Assembly (NCBI GenBank): GCA_025453655.1
Contig: JALOPX010000024.1
Coordinates: 1 to 42,043 of the forward strand
Source: Candidatus Krumholzibacteriia bacterium
GTDB lineage: Bacteria; Krumholzibacteriota; Krumholzibacteriia; Krumholzibacteriales; Krumholzibacteriaceae
Direction of reading: 5' to 3'
DNA: 42,043 bases
The notes below the pieces were generated by a model. It made no database searches and was not told the DNA's origin. It saw only the letters and a list, made by a program, of their open reading frames with translations. Shown piece after piece: positions 3,685-41,040 of this stretch (positions are counted from its first letter, which is position 1; every line of letters begins with the position of its first letter). The translations under genes and the position numbers were made by a program.

Positions 3685-3762
3685 CCCGTGGTGCAGCCCA
3701 CCCGGATGCCCGCAGGAGCGAACCTGTTGATACGTATCCGGTTAAACTCTGTCCGGAGAACG

Positions 3763-4740
3763 ATGAACAAAAGAAAAGCCGCCGGCATATGCCGGGCGAT
3801 AGGCGGGTCGTCGGTTACCGTAATAGGCGACCTGATGCTCGACAGATAGTTCTGGGGTCAGGTCGAGAGGATCAGCCCAGAGGCTCCGGTCCCCGTCGTC
3901 AACGTGGAGAGGACCGACGTGCGCCCCGGCGGGGCTGCCAATGTCGCATGGAACCTGATATCGCTCGGGTGCAGGCCCGATCTCGTCGGGGTCGTCGGCA
4001 GGGACGGCCAGGCATCGCAGGTGCGTTCGCTTCTGAGGGAAAAGGGGATTTCGACGGGGCACCTCGTGACCGATTCGTCGCGGGTGACCACCGAGAAGAT
4101 AAGGATCGTCGCGCACAACCAGCAGGTCGTGAGAGCCGATTTCGAATCGGGGGGCGCGGTTTCCGGCAGGACCCTTTCCAGGCTGAAGGCCGCGGCGCTC
4201 GAAGGGATCGCCGGGTCGGGGGCCGTGGTGATCTCCGATTACGGCAAGGGGGTCGTGGCGATGCCCCTGATGGAAACCGTGAGAGAGGCCTGCGCCGGGA
4301 GGAATGTGCCCGTCATAATCGATCCCAAGGAGGGGCGTTTCGAGCTTTACAGGGGAGCCTTCGCGCTGACGCCGAACCTCAAGGAGGCGGGAGGCTTTTA
4401 CAACATGAAGATACGCACCGCGGGAGAGCTCGAAACGGTCGGCAGGTCGCTACTCGAAGACCTTGAGGCGCACGCCGTGCTCATAACGCGCGGCGAGGAG
4501 GGGATGACCCTCTTCGAGGAGGGGAAGTCGCCGAGGCATTTCCCCACGAGGGCGAGCGAGGTTTACGACGTGACGGGGGCGGGGGACACGGTGATCAGCG
4601 TTTTCGCCGCGGCCATCGCGGCCGGGGCTTCGATATACGACTCGATCGAGCTTGCCAATTCCGCAGCCGGAATCGTGGTAAGGGAACTGGGCACGGCCAC
4701 GGTCACCGTGGATGAGCTTGCCGGTTCGTTCGCGGGATAG
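3763..4740 (+). pseudogene. hldA: D-glycero-beta-D-manno-heptose-7-phosphate kinase with in-frame amber codon
   Basis: PfkB-family sugar kinase (RfaE domain 1) that phosphorylates heptose-7-phosphate at C1 for ADP-heptose synthesis. Starting at the ATG at 3763, after GGAG, the frame reads VIGDLMLDR, then TAG at 3847-3849 (codon 29), then FWGQVERISPEAPVPVV. In the family this position is Tyr (LDRY), so one base change from TAT or TAC explains the stop. Everything after it is intact: PGGAAN, the GAGDT catalytic motif near the C-terminus, and full length (325 codons). TAG also ends this gene and several neighbours, so it is not generally recoded. A restart at an internal GTG such as 3904 would lack the N-terminal substrate strand. 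Alternatives are a consensus error, strain variation, or amber suppression. hldC follows 30 bases downstream. Confidence 0.8.
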
Positions 4741-4770: not shown

Positions 4771-5241
4771 ATGAGCGTCGGCATACTTGAAAGGAAGGAC
4801 CTCTCGGCATTCAGGAAACGGAATCCTGATAAACGGATCGTATTCACGAACGGCTGCTTCGACATACTTCACAGGGGGCATGTCGCCCTTTTGAAGGAGG
4901 CCCGCTCCCTGGGCGATTGCCTCGTGGTCGGAGTCAATACGGACGCCTCGGTGCGAAGGCTCAAGGGCGCCCCGAGGCCCCTGGTCCAGGAGAAGGACAG
5001 GGCGTTCATCCTTCTGGAACTCAGGTGCGTCGACCACGTGACCTTCTTCGGAGAGGATACTCCGCTCGAGACGATCGAGGAGCTTCTCCCCGATGTTCTC
5101 GTCAAGGGCGATGAATACGCGGCGGAGGATATCGTCGGCGCCGGTTTCGTGGAGAGCAGCGGCGGCAGGGTCGTCAGGGTGAGGATGGTGGGCGGTTTTT
5201 CAACAAGCGCTCTGATAAAGAGAATGAGGGGGGATCCTTAG
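4771..5241 (+). CDS. hldC: D-glycero-beta-D-manno-heptose 1-phosphate adenylyltransferase
   Basis: A 156-residue nucleotidyltransferase (RfaE domain 2) that joins AMP from ATP to heptose-1-phosphate, giving ADP-heptose for the LPS inner core. It shows the nucleotidyltransferase start FTNGCFDILHRGH with the catalytic HxGH at residues 34-37, the VKGDEY segment, and the C-terminal STSALIKR motif. Length is normal for a stand-alone HldC. It lies 30 bases after hldA, so kinase and adenylyltransferase are split here instead of fused as in HldE of E. coli. GGGAG is the nearest ribosome site, somewhat far at about 11 bases. The gene looks intact although its partner carries a stop codon. Confidence 0.92.
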   Translation: MSVGILERKDLSAFRKRNPDKRIVFTNGCFDILHRGHVALLKEARSLGDCLVVGVNTDASVRRLKGAPRPLVQEKDRAFILLELRCVDHVTFFGEDTPLETIEELLPDVLVKGDEYAAEDIVGAGFVESSGGRVVRVRMVGGFSTSALIKRMRGDP

Positions 5242-5331
5242 AGAAATTGAAACCCCGTAAGTTGTTTTGACGAATTGAACAGGATTGCATTTTGAGTGTT
5301 ACTCGAGAATTTACCGGAGGTCGTTTTTTTT

Positions 5332-6648
5332 ATGAGCAGAAGGAAGATATTGATCATGGGCGCCGCGGGCAGGGATTTCCACAACTTCAACACCCTGTTC
5401 AGGGACGATAAATCCGTCGAGGTCGTGGCCTTCACCGCGACACAGATACCGGACATCGCCGACCGGAAATACCCCGCGGCTCTCGCGGGCAGCCTCTATC
5501 CGAAGGGGATTCCGATCTATCCGGAGGAGAAGCTCGCCTCGCTCATCAAAAGCAAAAAGGTCGAAGAGGTGATCTTCGCCTACAGCGACGTGTCGAGCCA
5601 GTACGTGATGCAGAAGGCGCAGATGGTCAATTCCCTCGGGGCGCACTTCACGATGGCGGGCGCCGCCCCGACGATGGTCAGGAGCACGAAGCCGGTGATC
5701 TCCGTCTGCGCGATCAGAACGGGGTGCGGCAAGAGCCAGACTACGCGCGCCGTCGCGAGGATCCTCCTCGACGCCGGCAAGAAGGTCGCCGCGATACGCC
5801 ACCCTATGCCGTACGGGGATCTGGCGAAACAGAAGGTCCAGCGTTTCGCCTCGCTCGGCGATCTGAAAAAACACAAATGCACGATCGAGGAGATGGAGGA
5901 ATACGAGCCGCACATCGTCAACGGCGTCGTGATCTACGCCGGCGTCGATTACGAGGCGATTCTCCGCGAGGCCGAGAAGGAGGCCGACGTCATCCTCTGG
6001 GACGGCGGGAACAACGACATGCCGTTCTACAGGCCCGATTTCAGCATAGTCGTGGTCGATCCGCACAGGCCGGGGCACGAGCTGGAGTATTACCCCGGCT
6101 TCGCGAACCTCCTGATGGCCGACGCGATCGTCATCAACAAGATAGATACCGCCGATCTCGAGGGCATCGAAATGGTCCGCGAGAACATCGCGGCTTTCAA
6201 TCCGAAGGCGATCGTGATAGACGCCGCGTCGCCACTCTCGGTCGACAAGCCGGAGCTGATCAGGGGCCGAAAGGTTCTCTGCGTCGAGGACGGGCCTACG
6301 CTGACCCACGGAGGAATGCTTTACGGCGCGGGTATCATGGCCGCGATGAAATTCGGCGCCTCCGAGCTCGTCGATCCGAGGCCCTGGGCGACCGGCAAGC
6401 TCGCGGGGACCTTCGAGAAGTACCCCGATATCGGGACCCTGCTGCCGGCGATGGGGTATGGCGCGCAGCAGATAAAGGATCTCGAGAGGACCATCGCGAA
6501 GGTGAAATGCGATACGGTGATCATCGGCACGCCGATCGATCTTGCCAGGGTCATCGAGATAAAGCAGCCCAAGGTCAGGGTCACCTACGATCTCGACGAG
6601 ATCGGCCACCCCGACCTGAAAGACGTGCTGAAGCCTTTTCTGAAGTAA
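5332..6648 (+). CDS. predicted GTPase, cyclic 2,3-diphosphoglycerate synthetase family
   Basis: A 438-residue cytosolic protein of the COG2403 / CpgS type. An N-terminal nucleotide-binding-like domain (ILIMGAAGRDFHNFN) precedes a P-loop, RTGCGKSQTTR, near residue 130, WDGGNND near 223 and NKID near 269. In thermophilic methanogens CpgS makes cyclic 2,3-diphosphoglycerate; many bacteria carry homologues of unproven function. Start: ATG at 5332 after GGAGG and a T-tract; a longer reading from 5296 would lack a ribosome site. The 90-base gap upstream is AT-richer than its surroundings but shows no convincing promoter. sucC begins 64 bases downstream. Family membership is clear; the reaction in this organism is not. 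Confidence 0.8.
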   Translation: MSRRKILIMGAAGRDFHNFNTLFRDDKSVEVVAFTATQIPDIADRKYPAALAGSLYPKGIPIYPEEKLASLIKSKKVEEVIFAYSDVSSQYVMQKAQMVNSLGAHFTMAGAAPTMVRSTKPVISVCAIRTGCGKSQTTRAVARILLDAGKKVAAIRHPMPYGDLAKQKVQRFASLGDLKKHKCTIEEMEEYEPHIVNGVVIYAGVDYEAILREAEKEADVILWDGGNNDMPFYRPDFSIVVVDPHRPGHELEYYPGFANLLMADAIVINKIDTADLEGIEMVRENIAAFNPKAIVIDAASPLSVDKPELIRGRKVLCVEDGPTLTHGGMLYGAGIMAAMKFGASELVDPRPWATGKLAGTFEKYPDIGTLLPAMGYGAQQIKDLERTIAKVKCDTVIIGTPIDLARVIEIKQPKVRVTYDLDEIGHPDLKDVLKPFLK

Positions 6649-34317: not shown

Positions 34318-35208
34318 ATGCTTGCCGCCGGAGTAATGTCCACGGTCTCCTGCGAACAGAAATCGATCCTGGACAAGGTCAGCGGGGAATTTTCAAAGGG
34401 TAATTACGCGGAGTCGGTCTTTCTCGCCCGCCACCATTTCAAGAAGGGCGGGGAAAAGGATCCGGAACTCCTCTTCATAGTCGGCAGGGCGCTTCTCAAG
34501 CTGGGCAGCGAAGCCGAGGCCGCCGATTCCTTCGCCGAGATATGCGCGATCGATTCGTCATGGGCGGCGCGGATCGCCGGACTCTACCGGGTCGAAGCCG
34601 TTGAGAACCTCGAAACCGGGCAGGAGGCCAGGGGAAAGAGATTCATACTGAAAACCGCCGAATTCGGGCCGGACACCGATTTCGGGCCTTATAATCCGGT
34701 CGCGGGGGGGATATTTCTGGAAAGCAGGGATTTCGACGGCGCGATACGGTATTTCAGAAGATACCTCCAGGCTCATCCCGATACGGCCGGAGCGGCGGAG
34801 GTCATGATACAACTCGGTTCGGCTTACGAGGGGAAGGGGGACAAGCTTCAGGCCATCGAGCTTTACAGGCGGTTCCAGGACATGTACCCCGGAAGCCGGC
34901 TGATGTCCACCGTCGAATGGAAACTGGAGAACCTTCTGCTCAACGCAGGCACGGAGCTTTACTCGGGCGGGGAAATCGAGAAGGCCCGGGCCCTGCTCCT
35001 GGAACTGGCCGATTCGGCGGGGAACCCCCTCGTCAGGGAAAAGGTCAATTTTCTTCTCGCCGAGATATTCGAATCGAGGAACGAGACGGACAGTGCCGTC
35101 GATTATTATTCCAGGGTGGTCCACATGAACCTCGGATCCAGCGGAAGGCTGGCCGAAAGGGCCAAGGAAAGGATCGCAAAGCTTGAAAAACAAAGGTCAG
35201 GGCGTTAA
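34318..35208 (+). CDS. TPR-repeat lipoprotein (start uncertain)
   Basis: A protein of 296 residues or more with TPR-like helices (KGNYAESVFLARHHFKKG, FDGAIRYFRRYLQAHPD, KGDKLQAIELYRRFQDMYPG, RNETDSAVDYYSRVVHMN), related in style to BamD and YbgF-type proteins. Starting at the ATG at 34318 gives a very short signal MLAAGVMSTVSC with no ribosome site. In the same frame the sequence upstream (FLASLRSALFF) would complete a good lipoprotein signal, reachable from an ATT at 34282 lying 9 bases after GAGGGGGG, or from the GTG at 34275 if one base in the TTTTCC run at 34283-34288 is extra. Cys12 (counting from 34318) is the likely lipidated residue. The end overlaps bamD by 26 bases. Confidence 0.75.
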   Translation: MLAAGVMSTVSCEQKSILDKVSGEFSKGNYAESVFLARHHFKKGGEKDPELLFIVGRALLKLGSEAEAADSFAEICAIDSSWAARIAGLYRVEAVENLETGQEARGKRFILKTAEFGPDTDFGPYNPVAGGIFLESRDFDGAIRYFRRYLQAHPDTAGAAEVMIQLGSAYEGKGDKLQAIELYRRFQDMYPGSRLMSTVEWKLENLLLNAGTELYSGGEIEKARALLLELADSAGNPLVREKVNFLLAEIFESRNETDSAVDYYSRVVHMNLGSSGRLAERAKERIAKLEKQRSGR

Positions 35209-35944
35209 AAGGCTCGTTCTCGCGGCCGCCGTGATTCCGGCGGTCATCATGTCTTCGTGCGGCGGCCCGTATTCGGCCAGGAAGATGGAGGAACCGGGGG
35301 GGAAATTGTCCCTTGCCTCCTCGCTTTTCGACAAGGGGAAATACAAGGAGGCGTCCGTCGAGTACAAGGATTTCCTCGCCGCTTTCGCCGGAGACGAGAG
35401 GAGCGATTTCGCCCAGTTCCGTCTCGCGGAATCGTACAGGCTCGACGGCGATTATCCCCTGGCCGCCGTGGAATACAGGATTCTGATCAACGACTACGGT
35501 TACAGCGAATATGTCGACGACGCCTTTTACCTCGAGGGCCTGTGCGCCTTCATGCAGCGGCAGCGTCCCGAGAGGGACCAGTCGAAGACGTACGAGGCGC
35601 TCGGCAGGATCAACAGGTTCCTTCAGGTCTTCAAGGACAGCCCGCTCAGGCCGGAAGCGGAGAAAACGCGCGGCATGATTCACGATATCCTGGGCGAAAA
35701 GGATTTCAAAAACGGCATGCTCTATTTCTCGAGAAAACACAATAACGCCGCGCTCCTTTATTTCGACAAGGTGATCTCGGACTATCCCTCAACGATATGG
35801 GCGGCGAAAAGCAGATATTACAGGGGAAGGATAGCGGAGATAAACGGCGATATGGAGACCGCGCTGAAGGCATACGGGGAATCGGCCTCCTCGGCGTTCG
35901 ATTTCAGCGAGAAGCAGGACGCAGCCGCGCGCGCCGGCAAATAG
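35183..35944 (+). CDS. bamD: outer-membrane assembly lipoprotein BamD
   Basis: A 253-residue TPR lipoprotein of the BAM complex, which folds beta-barrel proteins into the outer membrane. Signal peptide KRLVLAAAVIPAVIMSSC with lipobox MSSC (Cys26), then five TPR-like units including KGKYKEASVEYKDFLAAF, YPLAAVEYRILINDYGYS, EALGRINRFLQVFKDSP and NNAALLYFDKVISDYPST. The PLAAVEY and YFDKVISDYP spacing is typical of BamD/YfiO. The start is TTG within the previous gene, with GGAAAGG upstream. A client protein is encoded at 16766 (minus). Confidence 0.88.
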   Translation: MKNKGQGVKRLVLAAAVIPAVIMSSCGGPYSARKMEEPGGKLSLASSLFDKGKYKEASVEYKDFLAAFAGDERSDFAQFRLAESYRLDGDYPLAAVEYRILINDYGYSEYVDDAFYLEGLCAFMQRQRPERDQSKTYEALGRINRFLQVFKDSPLRPEAEKTRGMIHDILGEKDFKNGMLYFSRKHNNAALLYFDKVISDYPSTIWAAKSRYYRGRIAEINGDMETALKAYGESASSAFDFSEKQDAAARAGK

Positions 35945-39305: not shown

Positions 39306-39928
39306 TGGGATGCCCGCTGATCGTGGTTACCGGTGGGATAGCCTCCGGGAAGACGACGGTGGCGCGCGTGATGGCGGCGGCGGGCGGGTGCCTCCTCGAC
39401 GCCGACACGATAGCGCGCACGGTTTACAGGGATCCGCTTGTCAGGGAAAAGGTGGGGTCGGAATTCGCCGGCGTGTTGACCCCGGGCGGGAGGATTTCGA
39501 GAAAGAGGCTCGGAAGGGCCGTGTTCGGCGATCCAGGCGCCCTCGCGCGGCTCGAGAGTATAGTGAAACCGCACGTCAAAAGGACGATCAGCGGTATCAT
39601 CAGGCAAAAGAGCGAACGGGAACGCTACATAGTGCTTGATGCGGTCCTCTATTTCCAGTATAAGTTCCTGTTCCCGGCGGACCTTTCCGTTCAGACGAGG
39701 GCCGCGGAGAATATAAGGGCCGAAAGGCTCGCCGGAAGGGACGGCATGTCCGCCGCCGAGGCCAGGGCGCGCGTCGAATCGCAAAGGCCCCTTTACAAGG
39801 GATGGGAAAAGGCCGATATTACCCTGGACACATCGGCCGGCCTCGGGGCCGTGAGGAAAAAAGCGGCGGAGATCCGCGACGGATTCCTGAAGAGCCGGGG
39901 CGTTTCACGGAAGGACGATCATGAATGA
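39305..39928 (+). CDS. coaE: dephospho-CoA kinase
   Basis: A 207-residue P-loop kinase for the last step of coenzyme A synthesis. The P-loop GGIASGKTT is at residues 10-18, LDADTIAR near 34, and the LID-type stretch AEARARVESQ near 160. The ATG overlaps the polA stop, and the gene's own stop overlaps the prfB start by 8 bases, so polA-coaE-prfB look tightly coupled. A TTG three bases earlier is also open. Confidence 0.93.
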   Translation: MGCPLIVVTGGIASGKTTVARVMAAAGGCLLDADTIARTVYRDPLVREKVGSEFAGVLTPGGRISRKRLGRAVFGDPGALARLESIVKPHVKRTISGIIRQKSERERYIVLDAVLYFQYKFLFPADLSVQTRAAENIRAERLAGRDGMSAAEARARVESQRPLYKGWEKADITLDTSAGLGAVRKKAAEIRDGFLKSRGVSRKDDHE

Positions 39929-41040
39929 GAGGATATCCACGAAGGAGATAGATTCGGCGGCGGGGGATCTCGAGGAAAGGCTCGACAGCCTGAAGGAGTA
40001 TCTTTGACCTCGAAAAAATGAAAACCGAATCAGCCGCCATCGAGGAGAAGATGTCTTCTCCGGATTTCTGGAACGACCGCGAATCGGCGGAAAAACTCGT
40101 CACGACCCTGAAATCCCTCAAGAACAGGATCGCCCCCTATAATACGCTGAAACACGATCTGGCGTCGCTTCGCGAGCTTCTGGAGCTGAACGAGGGCGAA
40201 GGGGACGATTCTCTCGTCGACGCGATGATCCCGGAACTGGAAAAGATAAAAAAGGCGATCGGGCTCTTCGAGCTCGACGTTCTTCTGTCGGGCGAGCACG
40301 ATCGCGGAAACGCCCTGATGAATATTCACCCCGGGGCCGGGGGCACCGAGTCGCAGGACTGGGCGGAGATGCTCCTGCGGCTCTACACGAGGTATCTCGA
40401 AAGGAACGGCTACAAGCACAGGCTTCTCGACCTGCAGCCCGGAGACGAGGCGGGGATAAAGAACGCGACGATCGAAATAAAGGGCGAGATGGCTTACGGC
40501 AGGCTGAAATCGGAAGGCGGGATCCACAGGCTGGTCAGGATATCCCCGTTCGACGCGAACCACCGCAGGCATACCTCCTTCGCGTCCGTTTTCATCTTCC
40601 CCGAGATCGAGGACAACATTGACGTGGAGATAAACCCGGAGGACATCAGGGTCGATACATACAGGGCGAGCGGCGCGGGCGGGCAGCACGTGAACAAGAC
40701 CGATTCGGCGATCAGGCTGACGCATTTCCCGACCGGGATCGTCGTTCAGTGCCAGAACGAGCGCTCGCAGCACAGGAACCGCGAAATGGCGATGAAGGTC
40801 CTCAGGTCGAGAATCTACGCGAAACGCCTCGAGGAGGAGGACGAGCGGCGTTCGAAGATCGCGGGCGAGAAAAAGGACATATCCTGGGGGAACCAGATCA
40901 GAAGCTACATATTTCATCCGTACACACTGGTCAAGGATCACAGGACGGACGTCCAGACCGGGAACATACCGGCGGTGATGGACGGGGAGATCGACGAATT
41001 CATAGAAGGTTACCTGAGATGGAAAGAAAGGAAGAACTGA
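39921..41040 (+). CDS. prfB: peptide chain release factor 2 (programmed +1 frameshift)
   Basis: RF2 ends translation at UGA and UAA. The gene is in two frames: 28 codons from the ATG at 39921 up to CTT, then TGA at 40005-40007, then, after a +1 shift, 344 codons from GAC at 40006 to the stop at 41040, giving 372 residues. The joined N-terminus reads LKEYLDLEKMKTESAA as in other RF2 proteins. The SPF stop-codon recognition motif (RISPFDAN) and the GGQ catalytic loop (GAGGQHVNKTDS) are intact. An annotation that begins at the ATG at 40018 misses the first 32 residues. The overlap with coaE is 8 bases; lysS follows at once. Confidence 0.95.
39993..40008 (+). promoter_or_regulatory. prfB autoregulatory +1 frameshift site
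   Basis: AAGGAG, TAT, CTT, TGA, C in the standard spacing: a Shine-Dalgarno-like AAGGAG three bases before the slippery CTT, an in-frame TGA, and C after it. When RF2 is scarce, the ribosome waits at UGA, the internal SD interaction strains it and the tRNA slips from CUU to UUU, restoring the frame. This is the well-described feedback control of RF2. Confidence 0.95.

Follow-up and report, generated by a model that had tools for sequence, protein, structure and literature searches.

The gene for heptose-7-phosphate kinase (hldA) in a draft Krumholzibacteriota genome contains an amber codon within an otherwise intact reading frame, which raises the question of whether the gene has been inactivated by mutation, has been miscalled in the assembly, or is expressed despite the stop. 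The window, i.e., the whole stretch of DNA analyzed here (42,043 nucleotides), is the entire contig C95 of this genome, which comprises 2.55 Mb in 199 contigs and is estimated to be 90% complete. The named relatives of the genome are metagenome-assembled Candidatus Krumholzibacteriota, and the genus of the window is represented by one genome in the comparison set. The features at the locus are as follows.

3755 to 3758, + strand: GGAG, possible ribosome-binding site of hldA (inferred from the sequence)
3763 to 4740, + strand: hldA, heptose-7-phosphate kinase (TIGR02198); closest relatives 75% identical
3847 to 3849, + strand: in-frame TAG, codon 29 of hldA; a Tyr codon in all comparable family members
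4738 to 4740, + strand: TAG terminating hldA itself; relatives end at a matching length, 295 to 296 residues past codon 29
4771 to 5241, + strand: hldC (TIGR02199, 187.7 bits; cut-off, 181.5); adjoins hldA in relatives

The hldA reading frame and its relatives

The frame opens at ATG 3763 and runs for 28 codons upstream of the TAG and 296 codons downstream of it, ending at 4738 to 4740. These counts agree with those of the preliminary description, which had also pointed out the amber codon itself: positions 3847 to 3849 read TAG, and the frame is open on either side. Both the position of the start codon and the length of the gene match those of relatives. With X placed at codon 29, hldA scored 370 bits against TIGR02198 (cut-off, 345), and the part downstream of the TAG alone scored 345 bits, just at the cut-off; a genome-wide scan with the same model flagged "1 TAG" within the hldA match. 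The kinase motif (PfkB GAGD) and the RISPEAPVPV segment are both present in the translation. By score and motifs the gene is an HldA, and what it lacks of a typical member is an uninterrupted frame. The ribosome site described earlier was found as a GGAG a few bases 5' of the ATG; the promoter claimed with it is weak, consisting of a single 9-of-12 match for which the chance expectation is 0.5. The closest solved relative of the window hldA is HldA of Burkholderia cenocepacia (PDB 4e84, 4e8w, 4e8y, and 4e8z). The 296-residue part downstream of the TAG aligns with it from chain residue 69, including the RISPEAPVPV and GAGDT motifs; the window gene differs from it in having TAG at codon 29.

Codon 29 was compared at every locus with a readable segment. 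The homologous codon is TAT or TAC in nine of nine genomes of the same family with a clear N terminus, as the preliminary description had held for the family Tyr, and the same site is Tyr, Phe, or Trp in more distant bacteria. The premature stop is therefore confined to the window gene among these orthologues, as expected of a pseudogene. Identities to the nearest orthologues are 70 to 76% for hldA, 63 to 66% for hldC, and approximately 53 to 84% for the other neighbor genes listed. Since the identity of hldA lies within the range of its operon neighbors, long decay of the gene is not indicated. A decay test based on invariant positions was uninformative, with hldA deviating at 8 of 137 positions compared with 0 to 10 in intact relatives.

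The gene order shared with relatives is hldA, hldC, the gene at 5296 to 6648, sucC, sucD, ndk, yceD, plsX, fabH, and fabD, and an SSF transporter gene precedes hldA in the Krumholzibacteriota order. The gene at 5296 to 6648 (+ strand) encodes a 450-residue protein that is 79 to 84% identical in relatives and matched no Pfam family at 1e-5. In Neisseria meningitidis and Ralstonia eutropha, split HldA and HldC replace the bifunctional HldE (PMC10221265). The window likewise encodes two separate enzymes, with hldC directly after hldA; it differs from those species in the surroundings of the pair, which follow the Krumholzibacteriota order.

Heptose pathway genes in the family

The preliminary description had proposed a search for a second hldA or hldE. 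This search, run genome-wide, found no other heptose kinase in the assembly; other PfkB kinases were matched only weakly. A second kinase copy, 36 to 41% identical to the window hldA, occurs in 11 of the 19 other family genomes, one of which has it alone; the two copies that were checked fall below the TIGR02198 cut-off and are related proteins, not certain equivalents. A second, distant hldA/hldC pair is also found at another locus in many Krumholzibacteriota relatives (e.g., L222; G008, C148) and is absent from the window assembly. A candidate locus for a second heptose kinase at a contig edge (C193) was rejected: a nucleotidyltransferase gene lies there beside a GT9-like gene, which suggested the second hldA/hldC locus of relatives, but its surroundings differ from those of that locus and there is no kinase. 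By eye, this nucleotidyltransferase looks like a glycerol-3-phosphate cytidylyltransferase.

Other parts of the pathway are retained in the window genome, which encodes a GmhA-like isomerase domain and six GT9 domains, one of them over the heptosyltransferase II cut-off; the heptosyltransferase-like genes form a cluster. No match to GmhB was found in the window genome, and none of the 20 family genomes has an HldD epimerase scoring above the family cut-off, even though genes for heptose kinase and adenylyltransferase occur commonly among them. Given these two results, the heptose pathway of the family may differ from that of Escherichia coli.

Decoding of TAG in the window genome

RF1 was found on contig C83 (502 bits), and RF2 is encoded in the window. 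In a sample of 508 kb, about 20% of the assembly, the codons that close 297 long open segments are TGA (179), TAA (62), and TAG (56). The use of TAG as a true stop had been described earlier for hldA itself, rpmF, acpP, efp, rimO, and a gene noted as bamD, and it holds for all of them, the last being a lipoprotein gene at 35183 to 35944; the stop codons of rpmF and acpP were derived from three-frame translations. Coding-like frames on both sides of a TAG were seen at 16 sites in the 508 kb, one being hldA and one lying antisense to genes of the window. By reading of the list, the remaining sites are junctions of neighboring genes, where the following start codon lies 0 to 26 codons away. A stricter, earlier pass over 304 kb listed the TAG of hldA only, and no second conserved gene interrupted by TAG was seen in the 508 kb.

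The prfB gene for RF2 (39921 to 41040, + strand) has a short frame from ATG 39921 with TATCTTTGACC at its end; the long frame goes on in +1. This arrangement resembles the well-known autoregulation of RF2 by a programmed frameshift at CTT TGA C.

A search for a tRNA with a CUA anticodon had also been proposed. None was found among the 35 tRNA genes, all of which had an anticodon assigned by ARAGORN; this set is incomplete, and the assembly has no tRNA-Tyr, tRNA-Phe, or tRNA-Ile. No pyrrolysine synthetase (PylS) scored over the cut-off in the 20 family genomes (best match, 26.7 bits versus 178), and the matches below the cut-off are at the level seen in genomes without pyrrolysine. A pyrrolysine system was thus ruled out, and genome-wide recoding of TAG was ruled out by RF1, the stop usage, and the 20% sample. 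The window hldA resembles cases of pyrrolysine or other amber recoding in having an in-frame TAG within a conserved gene, and it differs from them in that RF1 is kept, TAG serves normally as a stop, neither PylS over the cut-off nor a CUA tRNA was found, and hldA is the only conserved gene interrupted in the 508 kb. Literature searches for work on amber codons in the phylum, and for work on stop codons in draft genomes, surfaced nothing relevant.

Origin and meaning of the premature stop

There is about an even chance, in our estimate, that the TAG is a recent or strain-level nonsense allele, a reading in which both the reality of the base and efficient termination are inferred. A single base change would have converted Tyr codon 29 to TAG in the strain or population behind the draft genome. 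Under the standard code, RF1 would terminate translation at codon 29, yielding only a 28-residue peptide, and heptose-7-phosphate kinase would not be produced from this hldA. The pathway would then be expected to halt ahead of heptose-1,7-bisphosphate and leave the surface glycan free of heptose, as in known lipopolysaccharide (LPS) mutants with this kind of loss. Because the rest of hldA is undecayed, the change would be recent or held at the strain level. This reading is consistent with the in-frame TAG in a full-length gene, Tyr in comparable relatives, the presence of RF1, normal TAG stops, and the lack of a CUA tRNA, and the locus resembles an ordinary pseudogene allele in having one premature stop, an otherwise intact gene, and standard decoding. 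Against it stands the retention of the GmhA-like gene and the heptosyltransferase-like cluster: with these pathway genes kept and no other heptose kinase, loss of hldA should carry a cost.

The TAG lies within a potential secondary structure. An 8-base inverted repeat (CGACCTGA/TCAGGTCG) at 3828 to 3865 of the window flanks it and folds into a predicted hairpin with a 9-base-pair outer stem (z, −2.1) and the TAG in the loop. The hairpin is not kept in any relative checked, and about 0.5 such repeats are expected by chance in 261 bases by our own estimate. It is probably due to chance and was set aside. No homopolymer, tandem or slippage repeat, or invertible element was found at the TAG site.

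A miscall of a Tyr codon as TAG in the draft metagenome assembly, whether because coverage was low, strains were mixed, or reads carried a systematic error, is about as likely as a real allele; taken by itself, we put it slightly short of an even chance. The fragmentation of the draft into 199 contigs, the intact and conserved remainder of hldA, and the retained pathway genes in a genome with no second kinase would all fit a population that has a Tyr codon. The position of the TAG in the loop of a hairpin private to the window points the same way, as inverted repeats are a known context for short-read errors, but a hairpin of this z score, formed by a repeat this close to chance expectation, is weak evidence. 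The consensus is not generally poor, since an obvious internal stop was seen in no further conserved gene of the 508 kb and hldA was the sole match containing a stop in the family searches of the genome itself.

Readthrough, with a tRNA inserting Tyr or another residue at the TAG to give a full-length kinase, would account for the conservation of hldA beyond the stop. The incomplete tRNA set and the missing tRNA-Tyr leave formal room for a suppressor, and an altered or duplicated tRNA-Tyr could hide in the unassembled part. However, RF1 is present and no CUA tRNA was found, TAG terminates about a fifth of the long frames, an internal TAG was seen in no other conserved gene of the 20% sample, all pyrrolysine synthetase matches are below the cut-off, and relatives all encode Tyr directly. 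We therefore regard readthrough as very improbable, and marginally more so its specific form, with an amber-suppressing tRNA (perhaps an altered tRNA-Tyr that was not assembled) reading through hldA while the standard code operates elsewhere. Even less credible is a restart of translation at the first internal start, GTG 3904. The 278-codon open frame from this GTG could give a shorter useful kinase, but the product would be missing the conserved GDLMLDR-FWG-RISPEAPVPV segment found in every relative, and the GTG has no preceding ribosome site. Phase variability is frequent among LPS genes, and the TAG might on that ground mark one position of a switch that reversibly controls surface glycan synthesis; we find this hardly conceivable, as the change is a base substitution and the site has neither a slippage tract nor an invertible element, only the chance-level 8-base inverted repeat that relatives lack. 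Of the four readings offered in the preliminary description, nonsense mutation and consensus error thus survive, undistinguished by the present data, and neither phase variation nor a Tyr-inserting suppressor found support.

The amber codon of the window most likely reflects either a recent mutation of an ordinary kind or an error in base calling, rather than a novel mode of decoding. Taking the sequence as it stands, the simplest reading is that this copy of hldA makes no kinase. A single premature stop in one draft genome is of a kind already known, and alone the TAG at codon 29 matters little. The two wider implications, heptose-free life and a natural suppressor, are each supported by this single codon and nothing beyond it. 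If readthrough is true, a natural amber suppressor would exist in an uncultured phylum. If instead the nonsense allele holds and the base is real, it would suggest that the lineage can live with a heptose-free surface glycan and still retain the remainder of the pathway.
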